DNA of 64,000 nt from Bulleidia sp. zg-1006 (GTDB lineage: Bacteria; Bacillota_I; Bacilli_A; Erysipelotrichales; Erysipelotrichaceae). The notes under the pieces were generated by a model. The model saw only the letters and a list, made by a program, of their open reading frames with translations, ran no database searches and was not told the DNA's origin. Position 1 is the stretch's first letter. Every line of letters starts with the position of its first letter. A program made the position numbers and the translations under genes. Where the stretch lies: the NCBI RefSeq assembly GCF_016812035.1, contig NZ_CP069178.1:1178001-1242000 (forward strand), in the 5' to 3' direction. This document shows, in pieces, positions 7,749 to 30,400 of the stretch.

Positions 7749-9433
7749 CAGCAAACACCTCCCACTGCAAGTTTGGGCATATTCATTTCTAAGGTTTCAC
7801 CATAAGCTCTGCCTATGGTAAATACTCTCACCTTATTTTCATCTGAAGCCTTACACTCGCATTTTTCACTGTCCAAAATTGCCTGCATTAGATTTACCGT
7901 TTCCATATTATTGAAGACAAAGTTTATGGCATTATCTTCGCCAATCTCTATGCGGTCAATAAAAGACACCAAGGATAATCTATTAAGCGTACCCTCTTCT
8001 ACATCAGGAATAATATCGGAAACAAAACTACCCTTATCTTTAATTTTTTCTGTTAATTCTTCTATCGTTTTTTGTTTTGTAATAATCTGTTTCTCAATCT
8101 CCCTAATCTTTAGAAGATAGTTTTTTCTAAATCTCTCAAACTCTTCTGTAGTAATAAGCTCTTCTTCCAGGTCCATATAAAGAGAGCCTCTAAGCCTTTC
8201 ATACTTTTTCTTTTCCGCATTTAAGGAGTCGAAATCAGCCTTGATTGTGAGCTTAGAAATATCAATCTTACTTACCTTTTTAAGAAGCTCATTATATTTT
8301 GAAAGATAATTATTAAGAGCATGAATGGTAGCACCTATTACATAATCTTCTTTAACGCTATGCCTTGTGCATTCGCCCTTGATGTTATATTCGGAGCATA
8401 TATAAAAGATGTTGTAGCCGTCTTTTGACTTGACCTTTCGTCTAATCATCGGGCTGCCGCAATCTTTACAGTAAAGCATTCCAGACAGAATACTCGGATT
8501 TTCTTTTGAAGCTTTTACATCTCGAAGCAGCATTTTATTTGCCAGTGCAAATACGGATTTGGAAACAATGCTTTCGTGAGCATTTTCTATTATGATCCAG
8601 TCATCCTTTGCTACATCGACTTCTCTTTTGGATTTGTAATTGAGCTTTGCCGTCTTGCCTTGTTCTAAAACGCCAATATATACCTTATTGGTGATGACCC
8701 TGTTGACCATCTTAGCATCCCACTTGGCATCTTTTACGATAAAGCCCGTGTTAAAGTTATCGCCTTTATTCTCCTTGTGCCTGGACGGTGTAACCGTACC
8801 TATGCTGTTTAGAAAATCAGCGATTGCTTTTGAGGAATATCCCTCAATTTTCATATCAAAAATACGGCTGACAATATGAGAAACCTCCGTGTCAACCACA
8901 AGCTTATGCTTATTCTTACTGTCTTTCTTATAACCGAATGGAGCGAAAGAACCGATAAATTCTCCGTTTTTCCTTTTGACTTCCTTAGATGATTTTACTT
9001 TCATAGAAATATCACGGCAGTAACTGTCGTTGATAAAATTTCTAATAGGAAGTATCAGGTGGGTATCACTTACATCAGCATTGTCGCTGTCGTAATTATC
9101 ATTTACGGAAATAAAGCGTATACCTTTTTCGGGAAATATCTTTTGTAAGTATTTGCCGGACTCGATATAATCTCTGCCGAAACGGGATAAGTCTTTTACG
9201 ATGATTATCCTAAACTTGCCCGCGTTTAGGTCTTCAATCATATTCTTGAAGTTCGGTCTGTCAAAATTAGAACCGCTAAAGCCGTCATCTACATACTCAT
9301 TAAATATGGTAATGCCGTTTTCTTTAGCGTAAGACTTGATGATTTGTCTTTGATTTGAAATAGAATTGCTTTCTGAAATATCCCCGTCTTCTCTTGAAAG
9401 ACGAAGATACATACAAGCGATATTATTGTTCAT
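7748..9433 (-). CDS. Large serine recombinase 3, first gene of the recombinase operon
   Basis: Large serine recombinase of 561 residues. The catalytic domain has YLRLSRED and KDLSRFGRD; a recombinase domain follows; a zinc ribbon is formed by YCKDCG and a later cysteine pair around ICSEY and GECTR; a long coiled coil runs near 400-480. It is the promoter-proximal gene of the three, with an AGGAGG just upstream and a good promoter at 9498-9526. The three genes overlap by 3-8 bases and must be translated as a coupled set. Confidence 0.93.
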   Translation of the reverse strand: MNNNIACMYLRLSREDGDISESNSISNQRQIIKSYAKENGITIFNEYVDDGFSGSNFDRPNFKNMIEDLNAGKFRIIIVKDLSRFGRDYIESGKYLQKIFPEKGIRFISVNDNYDSDNADVSDTHLILPIRNFINDSYCRDISMKVKSSKEVKRKNGEFIGSFAPFGYKKDSKNKHKLVVDTEVSHIVSRIFDMKIEGYSSKAIADFLNSIGTVTPSRHKENKGDNFNTGFIVKDAKWDAKMVNRVITNKVYIGVLEQGKTAKLNYKSKREVDVAKDDWIIIENAHESIVSKSVFALANKMLLRDVKASKENPSILSGMLYCKDCGSPMIRRKVKSKDGYNIFYICSEYNIKGECTRHSVKEDYVIGATIHALNNYLSKYNELLKKVSKIDISKLTIKADFDSLNAEKKKYERLRGSLYMDLEEELITTEEFERFRKNYLLKIREIEKQIITKQKTIEELTEKIKDKGSFVSDIIPDVEEGTLNRLSLVSFIDRIEIGEDNAINFVFNNMETVNLMQAILDSEKCECKASDENKVRVFTIGRAYGETLEMNMPKLAVGGVC

Positions 9434-12992: not shown

Positions 12993-13352
12993 ATGGCAAA
13001 TAGAAAAAGAAATATACAGCTTAAAATATGCTTGAACGAAGAAGAAAAACAAATTTTTGAAAAGAAAATGAAGCTTGCCAAGTGCAAAACAATGAGTCAT
13101 TTTCTAAGGAAATGCGTTCTTGAAAAGGAGATTTATCAGATTGATTTACAGCCCTTTGCAGATTTACAGGGACTTCTTTATAACGCTACAAGCAATATCA
13201 ATCAGATTGCAAAACGAGTGAATTCTACAGGCATTATTTACAGTGATGACATAGGTGATATGAAAAAACAGATAGACCACATTTCAAAAGAGATATGGCA
13301 AATCCACGCTCTTCTTCTTGGAAGAACCGCTGAAACTGGAGATGATAAGTAA
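12993..13352 (+). CDS. mobC: MobC-like relaxosome accessory protein
   Basis: Protein of 119 residues: a basic N-terminal ribbon-helix-helix-like part (NRKRNIQLKICLNEEEKQIF, MSHFLRKCVLEKEI) and a C-terminal helix pair (LLYNATSNINQIAKRVN), the usual MobC pattern. It binds oriT and helps the relaxase. I chose ATG 12993, behind GAAAGGAG; an upstream in-frame ATG lies in the candidate oriT. Its stop overlaps the relaxase start. Confidence 0.85.
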   Translation: MANRKRNIQLKICLNEEEKQIFEKKMKLAKCKTMSHFLRKCVLEKEIYQIDLQPFADLQGLLYNATSNINQIAKRVNSTGIIYSDDIGDMKKQIDHISKEIWQIHALLLGRTAETGDDK

Positions 13353-13688
13353 TGGCAATAACGAAAATTCACCCTATAAAATCTACGCTGAACTTGGCAA
13401 TTGACTATATAACCAATGCCGAGAAGACGGATGAAAAAATTCTAATCAGCACCAATAAATGCCATGCAGCTTCCGCTCATACACAATTTTTAAGGCGAAG
13501 AGAAGAAGCAAATGTTCGAGGTTCTGTACTTGCAAGACATCTTATTCAGTCGTTCTTGCCGGGCGAAGCTACACCCGAAACGGCACACCAAATCGGTCTG
13601 GAACTTTGCAACAGAATACTTAAAGATGAGTATGAATTTATCCTCTCTACCCACATTGACAAAGGACATATTCACAACCATATCATCT
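13352..13688 (+). CDS. MobP-type relaxase, 5' exon
   Basis: N-terminal 112 codons of the relaxase that nicks oriT and leads the strand into the recipient. It includes LIQSFLPGE, the substrate-binding TAHQIGLELCNRIL and the metal-binding histidine motif GHIHNHII. The frame is broken inside the codon after HNHII by a group II intron (13689-16165). Removing the intron joins ATC ATC T to TT AAT AAT and gives HNHIIFNNVNMVTGKCYQ in perfect frame, with a total of 443 residues. Without splicing the protein ends soon after the motif. Confidence 0.93.
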
Positions 13689-16165
13689 GTGCGTCCATAA
13701 GGTACGAAGTAAATCCATTTTAGCAAAATGGTAGAATAGTAGTTTTAATATCTAGGGTCAATAACTAACTTAGAGGAGAAATCCAAAGAGGACAATAGCA
13801 CGTTATTAAAGTCATAAGTTGGATAGATATCATTCCACGACTGAATGGCGAGACCTAAAGTTGATATGAGGATAAAATCTAAACTGATTGAATGCCAGTC
13901 CGAGGAACATTTGTGGTGGTCATAACGAAAGATATCTATATACGTTATGTTGAGTGTGCCTATGTAGCGAAGATTAATGCATTAGGCAAAACTTTACACT
14001 CAATCCGCTTGCATAAGCATGAAAGGACGAAAAGCATATCCGACAATCAACGCTTGCTTTTTACTTCGATACTAAATGGAGATTACCTAAGTCAGAAAGC
14101 GAAAAAAATGCTATGGTTTTAAGAACCTGAATATCTGATATGGTAACGGAGCCTTCGTAGTAATCCGAGAGAGATAATGACTCTTACATGGTGAAGGAAG
14201 GCAGTTTATTCATTCAATTCAGAGGAAAGGAAGGTGCGAGAGGCACTATGAGAAATCCCAACAATGTATTGATTAGTTTGAGAAAACATTCAAAAGAAGA
14301 AAACTACACTTACAAAAGATTGTATCGTAACCTTTACAATACAGACCTATTCTTGCAAGCATACCAAAATATTTATGCTAACACAGGAAATATGACTAAA
14401 GGTGTAGATAATCAAACAATAAGTGCAATGAGCTTAGAAAGAATTAACAAAATCATTGATTCACTAAAAGATGAAAGTTACTCACCCACACCAACAAAAA
14501 GAGTATATATTCCAAAGAAAAACGGAAAATTAAGACCATTAGGCATACCAAGCATTGACGATAAATTAGTACAGGAAGTATGTAGAATGTTATTAAATTC
14601 TATCTATGATGAAAGCTTTGAGGACACATCTCATGGCTTTAGAGATAATAGAAGTTGTCATACCGCTTTAAGACAAATTCAAAATAGATTCGTAAGATGT
14701 AAATGGTTCGTTGAAGGAGACATTAAAGGTTTCTTTGACAATATAGACCATAACATTATGATAGACATTCTATCCAAGCGTATTGACGATGAAAGATTCC
14801 TAAGATTAATAAGAAAGTTTCTTAAAGCTGGATACATGGAACAAAACCAATATCACAACACCTACAGTGGAATGCCACAAGGGTCAATAATAAGTCCCAT
14901 ACTTTCAAATATTTACTTGGATAAGTTTGACAAGTATATGCAAAATTACAAGGAAAGCTTTGATAAAGGTAATAAAAGAAAGCAAAATAAGGAATATAAA
15001 GCTCTCTATGATAGAAGAAAAAGACTTGAAAATAAGTTAAGCAAGACAACCAATAAAATTGAAATAGATGATATTAAATCAGAAATTGAAGAGATAAACA
15101 AAAGATATTTCAATATACCTTGCTTAAATCCTATGGATGAAAACTTCAAGAGAATACAATATGTTAGATATGCTGATGATTTCATTATTGGCATTATCGG
15201 TTCTAAGGCAGATGCTGAAAAGGTAAAACAAGACATTGGTCAATTTATCAAATCAGAATTAAACCTCGAACTATCTGATGAAAAAACGCTAGTAACAAAA
15301 TCAACAGATAGAGCCAAGTTCCTAGGTTTTGATATCAGAGTAACTCCTGGAAGTAATCATACAAAGAGGACAAAAGCAGGTATAAAAGCAAGAAACTTTG
15401 GTGGTCATGTAAGACTTGAGCTATCAACTTCAACAATACAAAATAAGCTAGCAGAGCTTGGAGCATTAAGAATTAAAAATCTAAATGGAAAAGAAGTATG
15501 GTTTCCTAAAGAAAGAACTGAGCTAATATCAAGAACAAACTTAAGTATATTAGACCAATATAACGGAGAAATTAGAGGATTCTGCAACTACTACAGAATC
15601 GCAAATAATTCTTCAAAGCTCCATAAGTTTAGATACATTATGGAATATAGTCTGTATAAAACATTGGCTTGCAAATATAGGACAAAGGTAACGGATATTA
15701 TAACTAGATACCGCACTGATAAAGATTTTGGTATAAGTTATACAGATAAAAATGGTAATAACAAAACTCGTTTACTTTGGAAAGACAGCTTGGCTAGAAA
15801 AGAATTTCCCCAATGTGATAATGCTGATGTGATTCATAAGCAAAAATTCTATCTTAAGAAACCAACGCTAGGTTTAAGATTAAAAAATAATAAGTGTGAA
15901 TGGTGCGGGAAAGAAACTAATAATCTAAAAGTGTATCAAGTAAAAAAGCTTAAAGACTTAACTGATGAATATGCTTGGCATGTTTTTATGAAAAGCATTA
16001 ATAGAAAAACTCTAGTAATTTGTAATGAATGTTTTGAAAAAATTAATAACTCAAATGAAGAATAAATGGAAAGCCGTATACATCGAGAGGTGTACGTACG
16101 GTTTGGGGGCGAGTATCTAAAAACCTACATTAGAAATAATGCAAGGCGTTGGATACTTAGCCTAC
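13689..16165 (+). mobile_element. Group II intron in the relaxase gene
   Basis: A 2477-base intron starting GTGCG and ending CCTAC. Domain V is visible at about 16070-16102 (AGCCGTATACATCGAGAGG followed by TGTACGTACGGTTT), very like that of the lactococcal Ll.LtrB intron. Domain VI follows. The reverse transcriptase/maturase ORF occupies domain IV. The boundaries are supported by exact restoration of the relaxase frame. Introns in conjugative relaxase genes are well known; here the site is immediately next to the HUH-type metal motif. Splicing should be required for transfer. Confidence 0.93.
14248..16065 (+). CDS. ltrA: Group II intron reverse transcriptase/maturase (LtrA-like)
   Basis: Intron-encoded protein of 605 residues. 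The reverse transcriptase domain includes PLGIPSIDDKLVQE, the EGDIKGFFDNIDH region, GMPQGSIISPILSNIYLD and the catalytic YADD (near residue 310). A maturase domain follows (RGFCNYYRIANN). The C-terminus has CEWCGK and a later CNEC, an HNH-type endonuclease module. All key residues look intact, so the intron may still splice and home. I chose the ATG at 14248, behind GAGAGG; an upstream in-frame ATG at 14188 is less likely. Confidence 0.92.
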   Translation: MRNPNNVLISLRKHSKEENYTYKRLYRNLYNTDLFLQAYQNIYANTGNMTKGVDNQTISAMSLERINKIIDSLKDESYSPTPTKRVYIPKKNGKLRPLGIPSIDDKLVQEVCRMLLNSIYDESFEDTSHGFRDNRSCHTALRQIQNRFVRCKWFVEGDIKGFFDNIDHNIMIDILSKRIDDERFLRLIRKFLKAGYMEQNQYHNTYSGMPQGSIISPILSNIYLDKFDKYMQNYKESFDKGNKRKQNKEYKALYDRRKRLENKLSKTTNKIEIDDIKSEIEEINKRYFNIPCLNPMDENFKRIQYVRYADDFIIGIIGSKADAEKVKQDIGQFIKSELNLELSDEKTLVTKSTDRAKFLGFDIRVTPGSNHTKRTKAGIKARNFGGHVRLELSTSTIQNKLAELGALRIKNLNGKEVWFPKERTELISRTNLSILDQYNGEIRGFCNYYRIANNSSKLHKFRYIMEYSLYKTLACKYRTKVTDIITRYRTDKDFGISYTDKNGNNKTRLLWKDSLARKEFPQCDNADVIHKQKFYLKKPTLGLRLKNNKCEWCGKETNNLKVYQVKKLKDLTDEYAWHVFMKSINRKTLVICNECFEKINNSNEE

Positions 16166-17160
16166 TTAATAATGTAAATATGGTAACGGGGAAATGCTAC
16201 CAGTCCAACAAAAGAAGCTATCATCAAATCCGTTATCAAAGCGATAAGCTATGCAGAGAAAATAGCCTGTCAGTCATTGACGAATACTACGAAAGATTTA
16301 AGAAAAAGTATAGGACGAACGGCAAATCCTGGTATGAAAATGAGCAAGCTAAAAACGGAACTTCTTGGAAAAGTAAGCTCCAATTTGACATTGATAGAAT
16401 GATAAAACAGTCAAAGGACTGGGATGAATTCTTAAAGAGGATGGCGGATCTCGGCTATGAAATCAAGTATGGTAAGCATATCGCTTTTAAGCACAAAGAC
16501 AAGGAAAGATTTACAAGAGCAAAAACTATCGGAGAAGATTATACGGAAGAAAGACTCAAAGAAAGAATTTTAGAAAACGCTAATCAAAAAACATTCTCCG
16601 TTAAAAAGCGTGTCGGAAATATTATCGACATTGCTAACAATGAAAAGGCACAATCAAGCAAGGGATACGAATTCTGGGCTACCAAACACAACCTGCAAGT
16701 AGCATCAGATACTGTTATCTTAATGCGTGAAAAAGGCTTTAAGTCTCTTGCTCAGCTTGATGATTTTATTAAGAAAAGTGCAGACAAAAGGCAAAGCTTA
16801 CAGGACAAAATTAAGTTACTTGACGAGAAAATAGCTACCCTTTCCACTACTATGGAGCAAGTACATACTGTTACGAAATACCGCCAAATTTATCAGGCAT
16901 ATAAGAAAGACCCTACTGACAAAGCCTTTGCCGGTGAGCATAAATCGGAAATTCTCTTGTACGAAAAAGTCCTTGCCGACCTTAAAAAGTCATACTCTAA
17001 AATGCCAAATTCCAGGCAGATTTTTGAGGAACTTGAAAAACTGAACGAAAAAAAGAATACCCTTATGCAAGAGTATTCTTCCTCAAAAACCGAGATGACC
17101 GAACTGTATCAAATTAGGAAAAACTACGAGAGATATATGGGGAAAGAGATGGAGAGATAG
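16166..17160 (+). CDS. MobP-type relaxase, 3' exon
   Basis: Second exon, continuing with NNVNMVTGKCYQSNKRSYHQ and giving about 330 residues: rest of the nuclease domain, then a helical, charged C-terminal part with coiled coils (about residues 300-400 of the spliced protein). The protein ends KEMER, a tail similar to those of the SSB-like protein (KEAER) and the giant helicase (EHDER). The hsdS cassette begins five bases after the stop. Confidence 0.92.
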
Positions 17161-17164
17161 TAAT

Positions 17165-17188
17165 ATAAACGATAATTTAGAGCAGCAA
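17165..17188 (+). repeat. Inversion repeat, long form, copy 4
   Basis: Core ATAAACGATAATTTA followed by GAGCAGCAA. Identical over 24 bases, in opposite orientation, to the copy at 20972-20995 inside the active hsdS. Encodes INDNLEQQ in frame with the hsdS segment that follows. Confidence 0.9.
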
Positions 17189-17749
17189 ATGCATCTCATT
17201 TTTGAAGATATGATGGCTAAAGCAACAAATAATAAAATTAAAGGTGAATTTATTGTTGCTAAAAGCCTTACACAAGTTATAACCGGTAAAGAAGATGCAA
17301 ATTTTTCTGTATCAAATGGGAAATATAAATTTTTTACCTGTTCAAATACTCCATTGCATTGTGATGAGTATGCATTCAATTCATCATCTGTACTTATAGC
17401 CGGTAATGGCGATTTTAATGTTAAACATTATTCCGGTAAATTTAATGCATATCAGAGGACATATGTGCTAAGCCCTCAAAAAGAGTATTATGCTATCTTA
17501 TATTTAGCAGCTTTATATAGAATCAATTCTTTCAAAACAGGTTCTTCAGGTTCTATAGTAAAATTTATTACTAAAAGTGATGTTGAAAACATCCCTGTGT
17601 TTATGCCTCATGATTCTAAGTATCTTGATGAGCTTAATAAATTAGTCATAATGCAAGAGCAAAATATGCTTGAAAACGAATTGCTTGTGCAGTTACGAGA
17701 TTGGCTACTTCCTATGCTAATGAACGGTCAAGCTACCATTAGCGACTGA
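17168..17749 (+). pseudogene. hsdS: Silent hsdS 3' cassette (second target-recognition domain)
   Basis: Open frame without its own start, beginning in the repeat (NINDNLEQQ) and running to LRDWLLPMLMNGQATISD, the same ending as the active HsdS. It contains one target-recognition domain of about 150 residues that differs from the one in the active gene. It points opposite to the active gene and is flanked by inverted repeat copies. Inversion at 17165/20972 would join it to the active 5' half. Inversion at 17165/17755 would join it to the second 5' half at 17728-18312. It is stored sequence, not a decayed gene. Confidence 0.85.
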
Positions 17750-18312
17750 TACGGTAAATTATCGTTTATATCATTATTGGATATGATTTTTTTATCGATT
17801 GCACCTAATAACGCAACTATCATATCTTGATAATTCTTCTCGGGGATTTTAAAATTCAAAGTCGTTAAATAGTCTATGTTAATATTATCCTGAATGCTTC
17901 CACTGGCAGCATTTTGAATAGAAGCCTTTATATACTCAAAAATATAATACATAAATATTTCTGATGATTGGCTTTCATAAGCATTAAACCCAACAACACT
18001 GTCTGGAAAACAAGCTGGGTAGGATAATATAGCTGTTTCAGCTATATTCGCAGCTATCGTTATACATAGAGTGCCTTTGTTCCATAATTTACTTTGCTTT
18101 AGCCCAAATTCACCATATTCTTGTGTATGATTTTTGATATATAAATTTGCCTCTTTTATATCACCCGTCTGTATAAATGGATATTTGCCACCAGCAAATA
18201 ATCTCTCATCGTTTCTTGGTCTATGCTTGGATTTTCCACGAGAAAAAACACCAAGATCACTTAGTTTATTCTCATTCCAATCTTTATTGTATTTACTTTC
18301 GTTATATATCAT
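17728..18312 (-). CDS. hsdS: HsdS 5' half (first target-recognition domain), cassette flipped
   Basis: Protein of 194 residues with an N-terminal type I specificity domain (WNENKLSDLGVFSRGKSKHR) up to the central helix (NNDINDNL). After the repeat copy at 17755-17771 it leaves the hsdS frame and ends PYQSLMVA. It lacks the second target-recognition domain and probably cannot form a normal specificity subunit alone, although half-subunits can sometimes dimerise. Flipping the neighbouring segment 17165-17771 would restore a full gene of about 375 codons. Starts with ATG 18312, six bases after the integrase. Confidence 0.85.
   Translation of the reverse strand: MIYNESKYNKDWNENKLSDLGVFSRGKSKHRPRNDERLFAGGKYPFIQTGDIKEANLYIKNHTQEYGEFGLKQSKLWNKGTLCITIAANIAETAILSYPACFPDSVVGFNAYESQSSEIFMYYIFEYIKASIQNAASGSIQDNINIDYLTTLNFKIPEKNYQDMIVALLGAIDKKIISNNDINDNLPYQSLMVA
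17755..17771 (-). repeat. Inversion repeat, short form, copy 3
   Basis: Core ATAAACGATAATTTA on the minus strand, followed by CC, not GAGCAGCAA. It lies at the end of the hsdS 5' half, and just after the stop of the flipped 3' cassette. Confidence 0.85.
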
Positions 18313-18316
18313 TCCA

Positions 18317-19306
18317 TCACCCTATATATTTTCTATGAGCAATTTTAACATTGCTCTGTTTAACCATTGCATACTGCAAAGTCGTATCTATTTTACTATG
18401 CCCTAACAACTTTTGTAACTGTTCTATCGGCATACCTTTGTCGATCGCCATAGTTGCAAGTGTTCGTCTAAACTTATGTGGATGCACCTTATTGAGTCCA
18501 AGTTGCTTTCCAAAATTTCGTAATCTTACTTCTACCCCGCCAATTTTAAGCCTATCATATGGAGCTTTGAGCGATACAAACAAGGCAGGATTATTATCTT
18601 TTCTTTTAGACAAATAATTCTGCAAATGTATTTTCGTCCTTGCATCAAAATATACAATTCGTTCCTTGTTTCCCTTTCCAAAAACAACACATTCTCTTTC
18701 ATTAAAGTCTACATCTTCTCGATTCAACAATACCATTTCTCCAACACGCATACCTGTTGAAGCAAGCATATCAATTATTGCTAAATCTCTTAGTTCCACG
18801 CAATTATCACGCATAATCTCCAGAGCTTCGTCAGAATAAGTTTCTTTAATATTTGTTCCAGTTTTAACCTTGTGGATTCGTCTAACCGGACTTTTTAAAA
18901 TGTAATCCTCATCTTCTAACCATGAGAAAAAACTGGATAGAATTCGTCTTATGTTATCAATGGTAGTCTTGCTTGACTTCTTGTTTGCTTGATATTCTGT
19001 AAGATAACAGCGTATATCATCCGTTACAATATGCTTAACATCCTTCTTAATTTCATCGAGCATCGATTGTATCGTAGCATAATAATATTTCAAAGTCTTT
19101 TCGGAGCAACCTTCAATTTTCTTCGCTGACAAGAAAGATTCTACCAAGTTTTCTCCCGAAATGTCCTTGCTTTTTTCTGAAAGGGTTACATCGTAATTAA
19201 AAAGCGTGTGTTGTAGTACCTCATGTAATTTTTCTGTTTGTGCATTGCTCAAATATGGCAACATGCCTTGAACAATGTCTGTGATTAAATTTTGTTTCAT
19301 AGTCAT
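18317..19306 (-). CDS. Tyrosine recombinase, probable hsdS invertase
   Basis: Site-specific recombinase of 329 residues. An N-terminal SAM-like core-binding domain (SAKKIEGCSEKTLKYYYATI) is followed by the catalytic domain with Arg in TGMRVGEMVLLN, HPHKFRR (H-x-x-R), LLGHSKIDTTLQY with the second His and the nucleophile Tyr. It is not at an ICE end and ICE integration is served by serine recombinases. Its place between two hsdS loci that share inverted repeats fits the known type I inverting recombinases (such as CreX/PsrA of streptococci). It lies inside the invertible interval. Confidence 0.88.
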   Translation of the reverse strand: MTMKQNLITDIVQGMLPYLSNAQTEKLHEVLQHTLFNYDVTLSEKSKDISGENLVESFLSAKKIEGCSEKTLKYYYATIQSMLDEIKKDVKHIVTDDIRCYLTEYQANKKSSKTTIDNIRRILSSFFSWLEDEDYILKSPVRRIHKVKTGTNIKETYSDEALEIMRDNCVELRDLAIIDMLASTGMRVGEMVLLNREDVDFNERECVVFGKGNKERIVYFDARTKIHLQNYLSKRKDNNPALFVSLKAPYDRLKIGGVEVRLRNFGKQLGLNKVHPHKFRRTLATMAIDKGMPIEQLQKLLGHSKIDTTLQYAMVKQSNVKIAHRKYIG

Positions 19307-19399
19307 TCTCCTTTTCTTTTTCTTAGAGAACGACTACCAACGGCAGTTCTTCCATAATAAACTCTTGCCGTTGATAAGAGTTATTTGTTTTATAAAATG

Positions 19400-19798
19400 T
19401 CAGTATCTCTTAATAGCACTTACAATAGAACTTGAATTCCAAGCAACAATTTCATCTGCTGATTTTTTTACAATATCAGATGTTCTACTCGCTCCCCAAG
19501 GTTCAACAGCAATTATTCTTTTACCCATCTCTTTAGCAAGTTCAATCTCTATGTTTATCCACTTGCTATATGTAGAATAAACGCCCGCCAAAATGATAAT
19601 GCAACTTGCATATTGCATTTGATTTCTAATAGCCTTTTTCAGCTCATATGTGTTTGAAGTATTATGAATAGGATCATCTTTAGGAACTGAATAATTCCTG
19701 TAACTAAAGTATGGTGCATTATTCAGCAACCTAACTAATCCTTGATACTGATCACTGTAGCTCCATGAATGGCTTATGAAAATATTATAAGTAGACAT
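19400..19798 (-). CDS. TIR-like (DUF1863/ThsB-like) protein
   Basis: Cytoplasmic protein of 132 residues, wholly a TIR-like fold: YNIFISHSWSYSDQYQGLVR at the start, KDDPIHNT, CIIILAGVYSTYSKWINIEI (with the likely catalytic glutamate), and IIAVEPWGASRTSDIV at the end. This is the MTH538/DUF1863 type found in ThsB of Thoeris, which makes an ADP-ribose-type signal after phage recognition. No ThsA is present. The ATG overlaps the stop of the upstream membrane-protein gene (TAATG) and follows AGGAGG, so the two are coupled. A defence role is inferred. Confidence 0.8.
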   Translation of the reverse strand: MSTYNIFISHSWSYSDQYQGLVRLLNNAPYFSYRNYSVPKDDPIHNTSNTYELKKAIRNQMQYASCIIILAGVYSTYSKWINIEIELAKEMGKRIIAVEPWGASRTSDIVKKSADEIVAWNSSSIVSAIKRY

Positions 19799-20232
19799 TA
19801 ATTTCCTCCTATTCCACAACACTTTGTTGCTATCATGATAATTATTATAGAAATATAAAGCACTATAAAGATGACTGGAAAAGCAATTTCTAACTTAGTT
19901 CCTTCTCTATATTTTTTATTGTCTTTTAAATGCTTCCACTCTTCATTAAATGCTTGCATTGGCAATTTTTTCTCTATTTCCTCGATAACCAAGAATTTTG
20001 CTGTATTTAATAATTTAAAATTTCTTATAAAAAATGTCCAAACCACGCAAATACAAATCCCTGTTATCGAAAGAATTATAGTCTTCATATCCCACAAAAA
20101 AGAATTTGCGGCTAATAATGCGATATTGAGTGTTACAAACAAATTGTTCATGCTATCTCTTCTTTGACTCACTGAATTAGCCATTTCAACACAAGTTTGC
20201 CATTGAGATAACAATGCATCTTTATCTTCCAT
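19798..20232 (-). CDS. Two- or three-pass membrane protein, RipA-family-like
   Basis: Protein of 144 residues: a helical start with QRRDSMNNLFVTLNIALLAA leading into a first hydrophobic region (about 30-70), a soluble stretch, and a C-terminal hydrophobic segment (about 115-135, VIFIVLYISIIIIMIA). The CVEMANSVSQRR pattern resembles RipA-family oligomeric membrane proteins. Coupled to the TIR-like gene, it is a candidate membrane effector answering the TIR signal, by analogy with two-gene signalling defences. Starts at ATG 20232 near AGGAGG. Confidence 0.65.
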   Translation of the reverse strand: MEDKDALLSQWQTCVEMANSVSQRRDSMNNLFVTLNIALLAANSFLWDMKTIILSITGICICVVWTFFIRNFKLLNTAKFLVIEEIEKKLPMQAFNEEWKHLKDNKKYREGTKLEIAFPVIFIVLYISIIIIMIATKCCGIGGN

Positions 20233-20260
20233 CCATACCTTACCTCCTAATACTTAATAT

Positions 20261-20277
20261 TATAAACGATAATTTAG
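20261..20277 (+). repeat. Inversion repeat, short form, copy 2
   Basis: TATAAACGATAATTTAG on the plus strand, just after the stop of the active hsdS. It shares the 15-base core ATAAACGATAATTTA with the other three copies and is inverted relative to the copy inside hsdS. Confidence 0.85.
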
Positions 20278-20281
20278 TGGC

Positions 20282-21529
20282 TTAATCAGCAATAGTAACT
20301 TGTCCATTCATCAACATAGGAAGTAACCAATCACGAAGATTGATTAACTCGACGGTTTCATTTTTGTTCTTCAATATGCTGACACGGATTTTATGCAGGA
20401 AGTTTTCATAGTCCAATATAATTTTTTCATCAGGAACAACAACATTCAGTATTGCCAAATTAGCCTCGCTGAGAGATGCTCTTGTTGATGCCATACACGA
20501 ATTATGGAGAAATTTATATATGCCATCGCTACCTAAAAATGAACGTATGTATTCCCTGTAATTAGGATTGTGAACACAAATTTTTCCAAGAGCTACATTG
20601 AACGCACCCTCTATTCCGTATCGAACTGCACCAGCATCTCCGTATTTGTCCATAAGTATGTCAAAGCGGTCAACTATACTAAGATTTTTTGTTCGAGGAA
20701 TATATGTTATGTGTGTATCGCTATCATAATCTCTGTTTTGAATGAAACGCACATAACCTTCTTTTGGCTCATATACAAATTCACTTTTAGGTGGTTGACT
20801 ATTGCTTTCCCAACTTACCAATTTGAGCAGTGGAACAACATTCCAGTTCTCTGGAATATTACGTTTTAGTTGTTCGTTCCAAACCATCTTACCGCCAGAT
20901 GAGCAGTATGGCTTTCCGTTTTCGTCTGGAAAATCAAATTGTGTGAACCAGTAGTCGTAAATAAGCTTAGCTTGCTGCTCTAAATTATCGTTTATCTTAT
21001 TATTTGTCCGAACTTTCATTTCTATTTTATATAATAAATCGCCAATTCTTACCTGTTCTTCATAATCAGGCAAATATACATACAAAAACGAAAAAATATC
21101 CTCATTAAAACTTGCCCTCAAGGTCATTATAGTATTACAATCCAACACTTTCCGAAAATACTTACTTCTCAAGAAAAAAGCAATATATTTCGAGTACACA
21201 ATCCCCGTTGTTTTAGGTCTTAGTCTTTTCACGAAACCACTAAAAGTTGCTTTTGGATAGTCCTTTATCGCAACACAACTCATCGCTAAAGCATCCACTG
21301 TTTCACTTGTTCTCGTAATAAATACATCGTCTTTTTTTACAGAATATATTTCTTGTTCTTTAATAGATGTATTCATTAAATCCGATAATTCCTCGGGAAG
21401 AAAATAATTATTAAACACCGTACTAAATGATACAAATGGAGAACCGTGTCCAGATTGCGCTTTTGATGAAGATATGCCCGAACTCATTTCATATAAATCA
21501 CTGAATTTGTACTTTGTAAGTTTACTCAT
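20282..21529 (-). CDS. hsdS: Type I restriction specificity subunit HsdS (current active form)
   Basis: Specificity subunit of 415 residues with two target-recognition domains (about 1-180 and 230-390), each followed by a conserved helix; the central one reads NNKINDNLEQQAKLIYDYWF and the last LRDWLLPMLMNGQ. It decides which DNA sequence the HsdM/HsdR complex methylates and cuts. The ATG overlaps the end of hsdM by eight bases. The second half is flanked by inverted repeats (20972-20995 inside the gene, 20261-20277 after the stop), so its specificity is probably switchable by inversion. Confidence 0.92.
   Translation of the reverse strand: MSKLTKYKFSDLYEMSSGISSSKAQSGHGSPFVSFSTVFNNYFLPEELSDLMNTSIKEQEIYSVKKDDVFITRTSETVDALAMSCVAIKDYPKATFSGFVKRLRPKTTGIVYSKYIAFFLRSKYFRKVLDCNTIMTLRASFNEDIFSFLYVYLPDYEEQVRIGDLLYKIEMKVRTNNKINDNLEQQAKLIYDYWFTQFDFPDENGKPYCSSGGKMVWNEQLKRNIPENWNVVPLLKLVSWESNSQPPKSEFVYEPKEGYVRFIQNRDYDSDTHITYIPRTKNLSIVDRFDILMDKYGDAGAVRYGIEGAFNVALGKICVHNPNYREYIRSFLGSDGIYKFLHNSCMASTRASLSEANLAILNVVVPDEKIILDYENFLHKIRVSILKNKNETVELINLRDWLLPMLMNGQVTIAD
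20972..20995 (-). repeat. Inversion repeat, long form, copy 1
   Basis: Minus-strand core ATAAACGATAATTTA plus GAGCAGCAA inside hsdS, between its two target-recognition domains. Exact inverted match to 17165-17188. Confidence 0.9.
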
Positions 21530-23144
21530 ACTTCACCTTCTTTAACTGTTCCATAATCTCGGTTTTGAGCTTATCTCCCTCTGCAAAGTATTCTTTTAAT
21601 TTTGCCTGATACTCATCCATTTTTGCCTGAAATTCTTCTTGTGTTAATTCTACATAATCAATCTTTACATCAAAATATTGACCGGCTGCAAGTGAATATT
21701 TCTTTCCTTTTATCTCCTCATAAGTAACTGCAACGGAAAAATCCTCTACAGCTTCTTTATTGTTAAATGTATCAACTATTTTATTGATTTCTTCCGGACG
21801 CAATCTTCTTTTTTGATTATTACCGTCTTTGTATTCTTCTCCCAACTTAGAAGCATCAATAAGGACAACTTTCTTGTTCTCCTTTGATTTATCAAAGAAT
21901 AAAACAGATACATTTGTGCCGGTATTTGCGAAAACATTGGACGGCATACTAATTGCTCCACTAATAATTTCTTTATCAACAATGTGTTTTAACACCTTAC
22001 TTTCAACACCTGATTTTGCCGTTAAAAATCCAGTTGGAACAACAATCGCACCTTTTCCATTGCTTTTAAGCGAATTTATGACATGCTGAATGAAGAGCGT
22101 ATAAATTGCCATACTCTCTTTTTTCTTAGCAGGAATTTTCGGAACGCCACCCCAAAAACGAACGGGCATTTGATCTAATTTCGCTTTATTCTCAGAAAAA
22201 TCCATTTTAAAAGGTGGATTGGATACTACATAATCAAATTGTCTAAGTTCTTTTCCATCATCGCTTTTATGATACGGGCTAACTAAGGTATCTCCTTGAA
22301 TAGCATGATCTAAAGAAGAAACTAAGCCATTCAAAATAAGGTTTAACTTCAACATTTTATTACTTCTTTGAGATATATCCTGAGAAAAGATAGTACACCT
22401 ATCTTCGCCAATTTGGTGTGATAACGCCATAAGCAGTGTGCCTGTTCCCGCCGAAGGATCGTAGCATTCTATGTTGTGCAAATCCTTATTTTCTCCCACA
22501 AGCAAGCGAGCCATAATTGTCGCTATTGCATGAGGAGTGTAGTATTCAGCATATTTTCCACCGCCAGCTGTATTATAGTCTTTAATCAAATACTCAAATA
22601 TAGCTGCAAAAAAATCATAATGTTCATTAAATGCTTCATCAAAAGAAAAATTGATAAGTTTATCCACCAAAGCTCGTGCAAAAGGAGCTCTTTGTGCATC
22701 GTCTGTAACATTGGTAGTTATTTTTTCAAATAAAGCTATTTTTGTTTTTTCAGTTGTTTCTGTGGAGAATATTTCCTTATTCTTGTCTGCAATATCCGTC
22801 ATCGTAGAATCGAAAATGACATCAAAATCGCCTTTTGACTGCTGATTCCATAAGTTTGATATTAAATGTTCTGGATTTAATCTTGGAATATCCGGAGAAA
22901 GCTGATCGAATAAATCAAGCCTTTCATCCTCTGTCATTTTTCTGTATTCTTCTTCCCATTTAGACGCATTGCGAAGTCTTTCACTAATTTTTTTGACTTC
23001 CACTCCGAATTTATCATTCAAGAACTTGAAAAGAAATACTTGAGTGATTATTTTATATTCATTTCCATCGTTGCCAAGTCCATAAACTTGGCAAGTAGCT
23101 TTTAAATTATCTATTAACTGTATAGTCTGTTCCTTAATATTCAT
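21522..23144 (-). CDS. hsdM: Type I DNA methyltransferase subunit HsdM
   Basis: Adenine-N6 methyltransferase subunit, 540 residues. An N-terminal helical domain (IKEQTIQLIDNLKATCQVYG) precedes the SAM site CYDPSAGTGTLLMAL and the catalytic VVSNPPFKM. C-terminal helices contact HsdS. With HsdS it protects ICE and host DNA; with HsdR it forms the nuclease. The ATG at 23144 has GGGAG just upstream; the open frame continues further but without a ribosome site. Operon with hsdR and hsdS. Confidence 0.93.
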   Translation of the reverse strand: MNIKEQTIQLIDNLKATCQVYGLGNDGNEYKIITQVFLFKFLNDKFGVEVKKISERLRNASKWEEEYRKMTEDERLDLFDQLSPDIPRLNPEHLISNLWNQQSKGDFDVIFDSTMTDIADKNKEIFSTETTEKTKIALFEKITTNVTDDAQRAPFARALVDKLINFSFDEAFNEHYDFFAAIFEYLIKDYNTAGGGKYAEYYTPHAIATIMARLLVGENKDLHNIECYDPSAGTGTLLMALSHQIGEDRCTIFSQDISQRSNKMLKLNLILNGLVSSLDHAIQGDTLVSPYHKSDDGKELRQFDYVVSNPPFKMDFSENKAKLDQMPVRFWGGVPKIPAKKKESMAIYTLFIQHVINSLKSNGKGAIVVPTGFLTAKSGVESKVLKHIVDKEIISGAISMPSNVFANTGTNVSVLFFDKSKENKKVVLIDASKLGEEYKDGNNQKRRLRPEEINKIVDTFNNKEAVEDFSVAVTYEEIKGKKYSLAAGQYFDVKIDYVELTQEEFQAKMDEYQAKLKEYFAEGDKLKTEIMEQLKKVKYE

Positions 23145-23154
23145 ACTTTCTCCC

Positions 23155-26100
23155 TTAAGCATACATGTAGTAAGAGTTGTACTGATCAAGATATTCTCGA
23201 CTTATTCTGAATTGAATAAATGACCTATCTTCACGGCTATTTGAAAAATTCATGCTGTTCATTGAGTCTGTTATTTCCTTCATCACAGTTTGCTCAAAAT
23301 ACGCATCTTTCTTCAATATGTCGTTACGATCATAAACCTTACTATCAATATTTCTCTTTATTGTATTCAGCACATCAACAATATCCTCATCGTATTCAGA
23401 AGCAATTGGAGTTGCTGAAGTCATCCTTCTTCGCTCATTTTCTTCCTTTATCCTCTTATGCACACGAGCAAACTTAGTATCGCCATTATATCTTCGTAAT
23501 ATAGCAGTATTTTTCCTCTTAATTTCAGCCAATTTTTTCAAAACATCTTCCAATGCTTCCGATTGCTCATTAAATTCTTTGATACTGTCAATTACAAAAC
23601 CATGTTCTTTAAATCTTTGCATGAAAGCTTCTCTAAGTGTGATATATTCTGGATCATCTTGATCGAAATTTTCGGCAAATTCATTTATGGTTTTTTTCCA
23701 TTTTTCCTTTATCTCAATGCCTCCAGATATAATTTTCATTTCTTCTTTGCTTATAGATTTGAAACTGAACTCTATATCCTCCATCGCCTTATTAACAATT
23801 TGCTTCGTTTCATCATGCATACTGAAAACTTCTTTTTGGTTGATAATATCTATGCAATGTGAAACCTCAGAAATCATTGAAGGCAACTTTGTTATCTCAA
23901 GTTTTTCAAATTTTTGTTTCAATTCCTCATCGCCAAAAGTTCTTACAATATTGCACAAATCTCTTGCAGATATAAGCACCTTTTTTAACTTTAACAACTC
24001 TTCTTTATCCTCTATTGTTGATATTTCGGAGCTAAAATCCTCTGCATTGTCTATGGTATAGTTAAATAAAACTTGCCTTACTTCTTTCATCTTTGCAACT
24101 AATTCTTCGGGACTTTCAAGAACTTGGCTCAGTGTATCCATTGTATTTCCATCGCCTGTTTCAGCAGGATCCTTAAACCTGTTAAGTTCTTTTAGATAAG
24201 CTTCATTTGTCTCATCAAAGTTCTTTTTAATATCTGCAAAATCAATGACATATCCATAGTAATTATCTTTGTAAGGTCTGTTAACTCTCGTCAAAGCTTG
24301 TAGAAGATTATGATCTTTCAATTTTCTCCCGAAATATAGCCTTTTTAGTCTTGGAGCGTCAAATCCGGTCAAAAGCATATTAAACACAATAAGAATATCT
24401 ATTGTATTATTTTTCTTGAAATCATTAACTATTTCTTTTCTTGTCTCTTTATCATCGCTATCATGAAGAATTAACCCCGCTTTTAACTTACTTTTTACAG
24501 AAGCGTTGCAATTCAGTTCTTCTTGTATTTCATCGAAATAAGCAAATAGTTTCCTTGCTTGCTCACTTGTTTCGCAAATCACCATTCCGCCTAATGTATC
24601 GTCTCCCTGAATTTCTCTGAATTTTTTCAAATCCGAGATAATATATCGTAAAAGCTCTTTCACATAGGAATCGTGTTCTACTATATAGCTTTTCTTTATA
24701 TCTTTTTTCTCAACCAAATGCTCAATATTGTCATAAATTTCAGAAAGCTTTTCGCGGTATGAAGTTTCAATGTCTTCCCTTATTATTTTCAGGGTATACC
24801 CATCTTGAATTGACTTGTCATAATAATAAGTATGCAAGTAATTACCAAACACTTTCCATGAAGCTCTTTCTTCTTTAAGCAAAGGAGTTCCGGTCAAGGC
24901 TATCTTTATAGATTCTTGATCCGCATCAAACAGATTTGCCAAGAAACAGCCTTTCGGATTATATCCTCGATGTGCTTCATCAATGATAAATATTCTTTGA
25001 AGATTTGTGTCATAATCGTTAATCACGACTTTTTCTTTATCTTCAGCAAATCTTTGAATGTTGACAACTGTGATTTCTGTTTTTCCACTGTTTCCGTCTT
25101 GAGATTGGTTTGTTCTGAATTGAGCCATCAGTTCTTTTCTGCTACTTGCAGTTTTGACCACTAAACCTCTTGCTTCAAATTCTGAAGATGCTTGCTCTAA
25201 CAAATCTAATCTATCTACAATAAAATAAAACTTAGCTACTTTATTCTGTTTTGCATAATAATCTGTTAAGGCATAGGTTAAATGGTAAGACAATGCTGTT
25301 TTTCCGCTGCCTTGTGTATGCCAAATAACACCTGATTTAATCCCCTCTTCCAGTTTTTCTATTACAGCAAGCGTTGCAAAAAATTGTTGGTATCTCATAA
25401 TATGCTTTTGATCTAAGCTTTCAATCTTACCGCCATCAATTTCTCTATCTATTCTTACATAAGCAAATCCATATTTCAAAAGAAATAACAGTCTTTGTTT
25501 TGAACACATTGATGTAATTATTCTGTTTGTCGGCGTGCTCTCATTTAAGTTAGTCTGATATTCTGGAGATGTATGGATTACTTGGCAATTAAAATCTGAT
25601 AGAATTTGCTTTTCCATATCTTGATTTATATCCAAATACGGAAAATCTTGGATAAATGGAGCTACATCATTGTTGCCAGGATTTTCTTCTCTAAAACAAT
25701 TGAATTTTGTTGTATCTCTTGCTCCAGTGCAATAAAACGCACCCTGAATAGGTATTATTCCTCCCAAGGTTTCATACTCCATATTATTAGAGAAAATCAT
25801 TAGTTGAGTGATGTTAATAAACCTGCGAAATTTCTTGTTTGGAAATCTTTGGTCATTCATCCTCTTGCTTTCCGCAACCATTCCACCTTTATTATTAGGC
25901 TTCTTAACTTCAATAAATACAAGAGGAAGCCCATTTACAAAAAGTGTAATGTCCGGTCTGAATTCATCCTGTCCATTTTTACAAGTAAACTCAGCAGTAT
26001 AATGGAAAGTATTGTTGTTTATATTTTCAAAATCAATGAGTTTTGTTGGAGAAATTGCTACTAATCTCTTATAAAAACTCTTGCCTAAATCGTCATTGTC

Positions 26101-26352
26101 CAATTCCTGCCTTATGCTTCTTAAAACTTCTTCAACTTCTCCAGCATGAGCAGGGTTTAATTTTTTGAATTGATCTTTAAAAACTTCTAAAAGAATATTA
26201 GTATCTCCATCATACTTGATACCCTTCATATCTTCAGTTATTTTCCCGAAATACTTATATCCCAGGCGAGATAAATGAACCAACGCAGGCATTTGTACTC
26301 TTGTAGCCTCATTGAAGTCCTTATTTCTTGAATAATTTTTAACCTCACTCAT
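23155..26352 (-). CDS. hsdR: Type I restriction endonuclease subunit HsdR
   Basis: Restriction/translocase subunit of 1065 residues. The N-terminal PD-(D/E)xK nuclease shows DITLFVNGLPLVFIEVKKP; the SF2 motor follows with WHTQGSGKTALSYHL, IIDEAHRGYN, ALTGTPL and QALTRVNRPY; the C-terminus is helical. It translocates and cuts unmethylated DNA. The ATG at 26352 overlaps the stop region of the preceding HTH gene and is favoured over an upstream start that would run through that gene. No frame defect is seen. Confidence 0.93.
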   Translation of the reverse strand: MSEVKNYSRNKDFNEATRVQMPALVHLSRLGYKYFGKITEDMKGIKYDGDTNILLEVFKDQFKKLNPAHAGEVEEVLRSIRQELDNDDLGKSFYKRLVAISPTKLIDFENINNNTFHYTAEFTCKNGQDEFRPDITLFVNGLPLVFIEVKKPNNKGGMVAESKRMNDQRFPNKKFRRFINITQLMIFSNNMEYETLGGIIPIQGAFYCTGARDTTKFNCFREENPGNNDVAPFIQDFPYLDINQDMEKQILSDFNCQVIHTSPEYQTNLNESTPTNRIITSMCSKQRLLFLLKYGFAYVRIDREIDGGKIESLDQKHIMRYQQFFATLAVIEKLEEGIKSGVIWHTQGSGKTALSYHLTYALTDYYAKQNKVAKFYFIVDRLDLLEQASSEFEARGLVVKTASSRKELMAQFRTNQSQDGNSGKTEITVVNIQRFAEDKEKVVINDYDTNLQRIFIIDEAHRGYNPKGCFLANLFDADQESIKIALTGTPLLKEERASWKVFGNYLHTYYYDKSIQDGYTLKIIREDIETSYREKLSEIYDNIEHLVEKKDIKKSYIVEHDSYVKELLRYIISDLKKFREIQGDDTLGGMVICETSEQARKLFAYFDEIQEELNCNASVKSKLKAGLILHDSDDKETRKEIVNDFKKNNTIDILIVFNMLLTGFDAPRLKRLYFGRKLKDHNLLQALTRVNRPYKDNYYGYVIDFADIKKNFDETNEAYLKELNRFKDPAETGDGNTMDTLSQVLESPEELVAKMKEVRQVLFNYTIDNAEDFSSEISTIEDKEELLKLKKVLISARDLCNIVRTFGDEELKQKFEKLEITKLPSMISEVSHCIDIINQKEVFSMHDETKQIVNKAMEDIEFSFKSISKEEMKIISGGIEIKEKWKKTINEFAENFDQDDPEYITLREAFMQRFKEHGFVIDSIKEFNEQSEALEDVLKKLAEIKRKNTAILRRYNGDTKFARVHKRIKEENERRRMTSATPIASEYDEDIVDVLNTIKRNIDSKVYDRNDILKKDAYFEQTVMKEITDSMNSMNFSNSREDRSFIQFRISREYLDQYNSYYMYA

Positions 26353-26353
26353 A

Positions 26354-26569
26354 TTATTCACTCTCCTCACCATTAACAATTGAAACCATATCCGCAAAAT
26401 CGACATTCAATTTTTTGCCGATTCGATATAAAATCTCCATACTGACAAATTCACCTCTACCCATTTTTGCTATAGTAGCCGGTGCTAAAGATACTTTTTC
26501 TGCCAGGTCTTTTTTATTCATATTCTTATCAATTAGTATTTTCCATAATCCATTATAGCTAACCTTCAT
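26354..26569 (-). CDS. Small HTH regulator of the type I R-M operon
   Basis: A 71-residue Cro/CI-type DNA-binding protein (NKKDLAEKVSLAPATIAKMG) that is first in the restriction operon, with GAGAGGTGAAG before its ATG. Such proteins commonly time restriction after entry into a new host. It overlaps the hsdR start region (stop at 26354, hsdR ATG at 26352), so hsdR is translationally coupled. Confidence 0.85.
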   Translation of the reverse strand: MKVSYNGLWKILIDKNMNKKDLAEKVSLAPATIAKMGRGEFVSMEILYRIGKKLNVDFADMVSIVNGEESE

Positions 26570-27383: not shown

Positions 27384-27406
27384 AAGGGACTTAAATCAAG
27401 CCCCTT
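27384..27406 (-). terminator. Weak hairpin at the end of the giant helicase gene
   Basis: AAGGGGC and GTCCCTT pair across the stop codon region; only a broken T tract follows. It may reduce read-through or stabilise the mRNA end. Confidence 0.35.
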
Positions 27407-30400
27407 ATCGTTCATCGTGTTCTTTTGATTTTGTATCTTTTACTTCTTTTTCTTTCTGCTCTGACTGAAATGACTTAATCTGCCCTAAGATAGATGGCTT
27501 TTCCTCCTTTGCGTGGAGATTATCTTCCACATCGTAGGTAGTCTCAAAGTAGTCGCTATCCCTAAAGTCGTTGTCATATCTGTCAGGCACGCCGTCATTA
27601 TACAAGTCCTTTGCAAGCGGATCATAGAAATTACCTTCATCATCAATTTCAAGACCTAACGCCTGTCTTAATTCTTCCTCATCAACAAAAACAAATGCAC
27701 TAAATTCGCCATTTTCCATTTCAAACTTCATGCAATCAAGAGCCTTTTCTTCGCTACCGTTTTCTTTTACATAATCGTAATGACCTATCTCTTTGTCGTT
27801 TACAAGTTGTGTAGCCATAAAGTCCTCAAGATTAAGTTCAAACTGTATCTCATGCTTTTCATCAGGCGTATTTGTATAGGCAATACCTATATGTTTTAAA
27901 TCAGGATACAGTGTATTGAATTCCTCATAGCAATGATTTTCTTCATACTCTCTGTTACAGAAGTCAATAATGGCTCTTTTTACATCTTCCACTAATGGAT
28001 TGGGATTTTCTTTTTCTTCCACCTCTCCCATATCAAGGAGCTTATTCAACTCTGCAAGTCTTAATATCTTAGTTTTCAATTCCTCCGCCTTTTCAAAAGG
28101 CTTTTTTAATTCCTCTTTAGCATTTTCAAGCTGCTCTTTGGTGCTGACGAATTTTTCTTCAAGCTTTTTTAGTTTGTCAGGCATTTTCTCAATGGCATTA
28201 TCAAGTCTTGTAATATTACCGTCCGCACTCGTTCCAAGCTCTCCTATCGTTTTAGAAGCTCCGTTCAAGCTGAAATTATGCTCATTGGTAAAGAAGTTGT
28301 AGCTCACTTCCAAGTCCATATTTCGATACTTACCGATAACCTTGCTCTCATTTACTTTTACTGTCTTTATAGCTTCAAGCAGCTTTTCGCCCGCTTCTTT
28401 TTTATCCGTTATCTTCGCTCCGTTAATGGTTATGGAAGTAAACTTATTTTCGCCATCTCCTTGCGGTTCTACACTTGATATATCCTTTTTAACAGCTTCA
28501 ATAAGTTTCTCAAGCTTTGCGATTTCATCAGGATAGGTTTTTGCAACCTTATCTTCCAAGCGATAGCGATTTGACTTGTAATTGGCTTCAAGCATTTTAA
28601 GCTTCGTAACCTCATTATCTAAATCCATTTTTTCTTTGATTTTCGGATCACCTGTTGCAAGGGCTTTAATCTCCGCATAGTTAAGGGAACTTTCATCCAC
28701 ATCTTCCGCCACTCTGACAGGAGTCTTTGAAGTCATAATCTGAGAAATGAATTTTTGCTTATTCTCTATGGTCTGCCAAAGGTAAGCATCAAAGGTGTTC
28801 TCGGTAATGTAACGATAGATATTAACTTCTTTATTTTCATTTCCCTGACGGACAATTCTGCCCGCTCTCTGTTCAAGGTCAGCAGGTCTCCACGGCACAT
28901 CTAAATCGTGCATTGCAATCAGCTTGTTTTGCACATTTGTACCTGCTCCCATTTTCTGCGTAGAACCCATTAAGATACGGATTTCTCCTTTTCTTACCTT
29001 TGCAAAAAGTTCATCCTTTTGCTTATCTGAATTTGCTTCATGAATAAAGGCAATTTCTTCTTTCGGTATTCCCATTGCCACAAGCTTATCCCTTATATCA
29101 TCATAGATATTAAACTCTCCGTCTCCCTTTGGTGTAGACATATCCGAGAAAAGAAGCTGTGTAGATTTATTCTCTTTTGTCTTATCCCATATTGAAAATA
29201 CATTCTTAACATAGACATTGACCTTGCTATCAGGATTATCAGGAAGCAGTGGATTGATTAAACGCTGGTCTAAAGCAAGTTTCTTGCCGTCATTCGTAAT
29301 TTTCAACATATTATCTTCTTCAGGCTCTACTTCCTTATTTCTGACCTTATCCGCCCTTTCAGACAAACCTTTTAATATCTCTTTTTGTTCATCACTCGGC
29401 ATTGTCTTAACAACTTCATAGTGTGCTTCAGGAGTAGGAAGATTTAACATATCCGCCGTCTGAATATCTGCCACTTCCTTAAACATACTCATAAGCTCCG
29501 GAAGATTATAGAACTTGGAAAATCTGGTCTTTACTCTATATCCGGTTCCCTCAGGCGATAGTTCAAATGCTGATTGTGTTTCACCAAATGTAGAAGCCCA
29601 AGAGTCAAAATGCTCCAAGCCATTTTTCTTTAAAGCATCATACTGCAAATATCTCTGCATAGTATAAAGCTCCGTCATCGAGTTACTTACAGGCGTTCCT
29701 GTGGCAAATACGATACCTTTTCCGTTTGTCATCTCGTCCATATAGCGACACTTCATAAACATATCGGAAGATTTAAAAGCCTCCGACTGCCCGATACCTG
29801 CTACATTTCTCATTTTTGTATAAAGATAAAGGTTTTTGTAATTATGGGCTTCGTCCACTATCAGCTTATCAACGCCAAGCTCCTCAAAGGTAATGACATC
29901 ATCTTTTTTGAAATCATCATTTAGTTTTTCAAGTCTTGCTTCCAACTTCTTTCTTGTCTTTTGCAGCTCTTTAACCGTGAAGTTCTGATTTCTGTCGTGC
30001 TTGTATTCTTCAACATAGTTAATGATTTCATCAATCTGATCCTGAATATGTTTTTGTTGATATTCCTTTGACATAGGGATTTTTTCAAACTGACTATGCC
30101 CGATTATTACCGCATCATACTCGCCGGTTGCAATCTTTCCGATAAATCTCTTTCTGTTTTTCGGTTCAAAATCTTTCTTGTCGGCCACCATGATGTTGGC
30201 GGACGGATAAAGCTGCATAAACTCTCTTCCAATTTGTCCGGTCAAATGATTAGGAACTACGAATAATGACTTCGTACACATTCCAAGCCTTTTTGCTTCC
30301 ATAGCACTTGCCACCATTTCAAAGGTCTTGCCGGCACCTACTACATGAGCAAGAAGCGAGTTTCCGCCATACAAAATTCTTGCGATAGCGTTTCTTTGAT

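Follow-up and report, generated by a model that had tools for sequence, protein, structure and literature searches.

The 64,000-nucleotide stretch of Bulleidia sp. zg-1006 analysed here (the window; contig NZ_CP069178.1, positions 1,178,001 to 1,242,000) carries a type I restriction-modification system, with HsdR, HsdM and HsdS all encoded, in which a Xer-like tyrosine recombinase lies between two hsdS genes (Table 1). The order on the minus strand is hsdR, hsdM, hsdS1, a gene for an 8xMP membrane protein, a TIR-domain gene, the recombinase gene and the 5′ half of hsdS2, followed by the 3′ half of hsdS2 on the plus strand. At the joint of hsdS1 a short repeat reads I-N-D-N-L and runs in frame from the 5′ half (N1) into the 3′ cassette (C1), so that the hsdM-linked hsdS is complete (N1+C1; ON). 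At the hsdS2 joint the same repeat is followed by PYQSLMVA and a stop codon, which leaves this copy OFF; its 3′ cassette (C2) starts at the outermost repeat and points in the wrong direction. The 5′ half of hsdS2 (N2) begins 4 nucleotides past the recombinase stop codon, and the putative catalytic residues of the recombinase (R187, K211, H277, R280, H303 and Y312) are invariant across 14 homologues. The window also encodes a type IV secretion system coupling protein, a TraG-like ATPase, TrbL, a NikA-like protein, a relaxase and three large serine recombinases, in agreement with an earlier sequence-only reading of this DNA that had placed the locus on an integrative and conjugative element (ICE).

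A single 14-bp site at four positions

Searching the window for the 15-mer ATAAACGATAATTTA returned exact copies at 17165 (+), 17755 (-), 20262 (+) and 20981 (-), in alternating orientation, and these were the only exact copies in the whole genome (1,545,033 bases). The reversed pattern, used as a control, had no match across the 1.545-Mb genome. With up to two mismatches allowed, the window gave five matches, namely the four exact copies and one with two mismatches at 53089, while shuffled windows gave a mean of 0.77 and never reached five. The shuffled-window counts and the genome-wide exact search rule out a chance origin of the repeats. The sequence-only reading had described four alternating copies that bracket both 3′ cassettes, with a recombinase between, and this arrangement held. 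Its coordinates 17165 and 17755 were exact; 20261 was one base off, and 20972 is the start of a long form of the repeat that includes GAGCAGCAA, the site itself lying at 20981. The long form was rejected as a component of the repeat: GAGCAGCAA encodes the first codons of the cassette (EQQ), and its bases vary from cassette to cassette in relatives, which carry CTGGACCAA, GCATACCAA or others instead. What had been called the long and short forms are the two ends of one cassette.

In relatives, the outer sites differ in the first base of the 15-mer, and we therefore define the shared DNA as the 14 bp TAAACGATAATTTA. The outward flanks of the outer sites carry almost no information across relatives, which likewise limits the DNA element to the 14-mer. 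This single class of site serves all four positions in the window, where it either lies across the joint of two target-recognition domains, overlapping the conserved I-N-D-N-L motif of HsdS, or closely follows a stop codon that ends a 3′ cassette. A promoter scan gave 57 against 43 expected from shuffles (standard deviation 6.5), which is no clear excess, and was not used.

Fixed arms and a locus-specific spacer in relatives

The recombinase is 79-86% identical to proteins of Thomasclavelia, Massilimicrobiota and a gut phage record, and most of the relatives that we examined have a member of this family between two hsdS genes. Within 6 kb of the recombinase, at least three copies of a TAAA-N6-TTTA site with one spacer were present in 82 of 121 loci and at least four in 59 of 121. 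Most relatives share the layout, and the four-site form was found in dozens of genomes. Our first model of the site, ATAAACRATAATTTA, proved too narrow, as Lactococcus, E. faecium and L. salivarius have other spacers; across loci we saw CAATAA, CGATAA, CAAGAA, TGATAA, CGAGAA, TCATCA and others, 16 in all. The two joints of a locus had matching spacers in 75 of 76 genuine pairs, compared with 12.6% between loci. Five joint pairs that initially appeared different were checked; four were spurious extra matches (survey loci L138 and L207) and one was real. In the latter (L102), the joints at 9031 and 11526 have the spacers CGAGAA and CAATAA, while the near-identical L141 has matching sites, and L102 may be a broken or re-founded switch. 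Fixed arms combined with a varying but locus-matched spacer would be expected of a tyrosine recombinase site whose crossover region needs to match between partners. The same recombinase module is found attached to restriction-modification genes whose identity to the window's HsdM is about 80% in some cases and only 22-30% in others. On the archaeal Methanosphaera plasmid pNP174 (L217), a 58%-identical recombinase has no annotated hsdS nearby, its neighbours being DUF2207 and unnamed proteins; there the family may flip something else.

Cassettes flip and change places between relatives

Comparison of near-identical relatives showed switching at the homologous sites, both by inversion of a cassette in place and by exchange of cassettes, which is the mechanism that the sequence-only reading had proposed. 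The 5′ halves and the recombinase are identical in the Lactococcus plasmids pJM2A (L212), pUC073A (L215) and pUCCL627F (L213). Relative to pJM2A, pUCCL627F has its two cassettes exchanged, both of them inverted and 100% identical in sequence. The plasmid pJM1A (L214) shows an in-place flip of the left cassette (C1), again at 100% identity, and has another copy of this cassette at the right position; cassettes can therefore be duplicated or replaced as well as flipped. Between Massiliimalia (L084) and an uncultured member of the Oscillospiraceae (L087), the left cassette is flipped in place at 99.8% identity, giving an ON joint in one and an OFF joint in the other. Replacement by unrelated cassettes was also seen in this pair and in L062/L063, and L090 and L096 share a cassette that lies on opposite sides of the recombinase. 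The recombinase module of L065 has the opposite orientation relative to hsdM from that in L062 and L063. This is one of five convergent isomers (L065, L105, L109, L119 and L141), in which the module is inverted with respect to hsdM, such that a single cassette is faced by both 5′ halves. A single inversion, whether at the inner or at the outer pair of sites, is expected to yield this arrangement.

Usually one complete hsdS at a time

A script started from the window arrangement and inverted every segment bounded by two opposed sites. This simulation reached 16 configurations, 8 of them convergent, and in all 16 each 5′ half was joined in frame to C1, C2 or a short tail. The predicted complete HsdS products are N1C1 (415 aa), N1C2 (372 aa), N2C2 (375 aa) and N2C1 (418 aa). 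Exactly one hsdS is complete in 12 of the 16 configurations, and 8 of these 12 are convergent. If inversions occur in pairs, the tandem layout has four one-ON states that interconvert only among themselves, matching the four complete alleles.

For each assembly, our survey recorded a single consensus state. In the complete tandem loci with four sites, the raw states of the hsdM-linked and recombinase-linked copies were OFF/ON in 26, ON/OFF in 18, both OFF in 3 and both ON in 1. When each recombinase cluster was counted once, 38 of 42 tandem loci were one-ON, 3 were both OFF and 1 was both ON, with 5 convergent loci in addition. The one-ON excess over independent flips is significant (P = 6e-8, with clusters merged at 97% recombinase identity only and deeper relatedness ignored). 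The only plain both-ON locus (L129) comes from a metagenome-assembled genome and appears to hold the same cassette twice; its state may be an assembly effect. The sequence-only reading had seen hsdS2 as caught in the off state. It is OFF, with its cassette reversed, but one ON and one OFF copy is the standard state of the family, and the window shows no oddity in this respect. The sole complete copy is the recombinase-linked hsdS in 26 of the 44 raw one-ON loci; if these systems work, this position must be expressed, and the second locus thus seems to serve the family as a functional expression site. Transcription and methylation from this position have been shown in Streptococcus suis (PMC10790761).

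A specificity switch and its alternatives

Taken together, we are confident that the locus is a specificity switch of a type I restriction-modification system on an ICE, of the type known from the S. suis prophage locus SsuCC20p. In such a switch the tyrosine recombinase would cut and rejoin DNA at the four identical 14-bp TAAA-N6-TTTA sites, with CGATAA as the spacer here. Recombination between oppositely oriented sites would either invert a 3′ cassette where it lies, so that it becomes fused in frame with its 5′ half or separated from it, or move each cassette to the other hsdS gene. Complete HsdS could arise in four versions (N1C1, N1C2, N2C1 and N2C2), usually one at a time, with the other 5′ half ending as a stub of about 190 aa. 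From the anatomy of the locus, the rearrangements in relatives and the published S. suis experiment (PMC10790761), we infer that the strain itself switches, that this recombinase is the catalyst and that the methylation motif changes accordingly. Three observations weigh against this interpretation: one static assembly accommodates all four copies, and this assembly, the only one available for the strain, shows no alternative orientation; the strain-level flip pairs all come from other species; and some strain-level pairs differ by cassette replacement too, such that not every difference is a simple inversion.

The single assembly, together with the fact that the joint encodes a conserved protein motif, would also suit a fossil locus in which the repeats persist because the HsdS helices are conserved. 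We regard this as very improbable, since the outer sites are free of the coding constraint of the joint yet keep all 8 arm bases between unconserved outer flanks, the recombinase is intact and close in sequence to those of distant relatives, and flips are seen between near-identical relatives. A different possibility is that the OFF 5′ half is not silent, and that its single-domain HsdS stub pairs with itself or with HsdM to give another specificity or to modulate the enzyme. The OFF joints of relatives stop in frame within a few codons and keep a full target-recognition domain, and the truncated HsdS of NgoAV has its own methylation specificity (PMC7394358). However, the stub ends inside the central region and lacks the C-terminal part, and the S. 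suis methylome contained only motifs assigned to complete alleles (PMC10790761), which makes an active stub unlikely.

The specificity switch could be refined, rather than replaced, by coordinated double recombination, in which all four sites act together and both cassettes flip or trade places at once, keeping one complete hsdS and keeping the recombinase in line with hsdM. The per-cluster counts are consistent with this idea, as is the finding of only 5 convergent loci although half of the reachable configurations are convergent. Random single inversions with selection for one ON copy alone would make convergent isomers exceed tandem ones 2 to 1, and they are rare. The S. suis study likewise recorded no states other than single-complete ones, and its authors put forward coordinated double recombination (PMC10790761). 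The existence of both-OFF, both-ON and convergent loci, however, shows that single inversions happen too, and selection against zero or two specificities and for a module aligned with the hsd transcript predicts the same counts. Either paired inversions or added selection for transcriptional alignment with hsdM would explain the convergent shortage, and the survey data do not separate them; we consider coordination plausible but somewhat less likely than its absence. More tentative still is the idea that the recombinase synapses four sites at once and allows paired inversions only, which would leave each generation with exactly one complete copy out of the two hsdS genes. If true, this would be a DNA-topological mutual-exclusion switch, conserved among mobile elements and many Bacillota. 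The one-ON rule and the convergent shortage pose a testable question, namely whether one recombinase coordinates two inversions or selection is at work.

Neighbouring genes

Table 1. Positions in the window of the recombination sites, the switch genes and nearby ICE features.
Feature	Position	Strand	Remarks
Three large serine recombinases in tandem	4595-9433	-	
Relaxase N-terminus	13352-13723	+	
Intron reverse transcriptase	14188-16065	+	
364-aa open frame after relaxase and intron	16066-17160	+	ends 5 bases before outermost 15-mer copy
Intron domain match	16069-16165	+	
Site a	17166-17179	+	TAAA-CGATAA-TTTA; 5′ end of silent cassette C2
3′ hsdS cassette C2 (second target-recognition domain)	17180-17754	+	open frame from site a to the stop codon at 17749; orientation opposite to its 5′ half
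Cassette C2 domain match	17189-17749	+	Methylase_S Pfam, E 1.9e-6
hsdS2 5′ half N2, 194 aa	17728-18312	-	one target-recognition domain; Methylase_S Pfam, E 5e-15
Site b	17755-17768	-	hsdS2 joint, currently OFF; reads INDNLPYQSLMVA-stop
Xer-like tyrosine recombinase, 329 aa	18317-19306	-	full-length
TIR-domain protein (ThsB-like)	19400-19822	-	Pfam ThsB_TIR E 4.6e-18; PADLOC ThsB; cargo between site c and recombinase
8xMP membrane protein	19798-20232	-	paired with TIR gene; PF24838 E 7e-31
Site c	20263-20276	+	just past stop codon of hsdS1 cassette C1
3′ hsdS cassette C1	20282-20980	-	now joined to N1
hsdS1, complete (415 aa)	20282-21529	-	N1 + C1; Methylase_S; PADLOC Specificity_I E 6e-68; EcoKI HsdS 2y7c E 8e-6
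Site d	20981-20994	-	in-frame hsdS1 joint (KINDNLEQQ), ON
hsdM	21522-23189	-	N6_Mtase E 7e-67; PADLOC MTase_I
hsdR	23155-26406	-	HSDR_N, SWI2_SNF2; TIGR00348 over cut-off

The serine recombinase trio is probably the integration module of the ICE. A group II intron splits the relaxase gene (13352-17160, +), and the 364-aa open frame presumably includes the rest of the relaxase. The TIR/8xMP gene pair (19400-20232, -), which here lies inside the invertible module, is found just outside the switch in Clostridium porci (L071, 12164-12988; 62-68% identity). It also occurs in a genome of the same genus (L218), with no recombinase or HsdM match in the 3.4 kb examined, and looks like a self-contained candidate defence unit. 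Upstream of hsdR (27405-35726, -), the ICE encodes a protein of 2773 aa that combines helicase (SNF2/ResIII) motifs with those of an Eco57I-type methylase.

Comparison with known systems

The pneumococcal SpnIII locus (also cod or ivr), with its recombinase CreX (PsrA), resembles the window locus in having a tyrosine recombinase beside hsdS genes, a short inverted repeat at the joint of target-recognition domains and exchange of 3′ cassettes. It uses three repeat sizes (15, 85 and 298-333 bp) with a shared ATTATGGGAA core, silent donors and one expressed hsdS (PMC4948785, PMC7096588, PMC6620402). In the window locus we found one 14-bp site class in place of several repeat pairs with this core, and an exclusively pneumococcal-type explanation was rejected on the single site class and the different core (PMC6620402). 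Inverton group 145 of the hCom2 gut community comprises invertons in restriction subunit S genes across phyla, with a tyrosine recombinase and relaxase/MobC nearby (PMC11892184). It likely shares the site family described here, although the main text of that paper gives no repeat motif.

SsuCC20p, on an S. suis prophage, comprises hsdM, hsdR, four target-recognition domains, a XerD recombinase and the inverted repeat TAAATCATCATTTA (Roodsant et al., PMC10790761). Deletion of xerD freezes the alleles, which give distinct methylomes (PMC10790761). Like SsuCC20p, the window locus has hsdR and hsdM, four target-recognition domains in two hsdS genes with a recombinase between them, and a mobile-element carrier; in both, four short identical TAAA-N6-TTTA sites bracket two 3′ cassettes and one hsdS is complete at a time. 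The spacer differs, being TCATCA in SsuCC20p (TAAA-TCATCA-TTTA), as in the Lactococcus and E. faecium loci of our survey, and CGATAA in the window. The carrier is an ICE in an Erysipelotrichales genome rather than a streptococcal prophage, and TIR-8xMP cargo lies inside the invertible module. Wider relatives include convergent isomers with intact sites, and such isomers were not seen in S. suis. Every feature of SsuCC20p that can be checked on sequence is present, and by that measure the window locus is of the same kind. The sequence-only reading had thought such a system unusual, a view that the frequency of the layout and the experimental S. suis case (PMC10790761) do not support; the points still of interest are how broad the family is, the spacer that is specific to each locus, the one-ON rule and the occurrence of convergent isomers. 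Switchable type I specificity alters phage and plasmid restriction and genome-wide methylation, and four TAAA-N6-TTTA sites in alternating orientation beside a Xer-like recombinase and hsdS provide a signature with which to search for such switches. The window locus adds an ICE from a different lineage to the known range of a switch that has been studied in S. suis.

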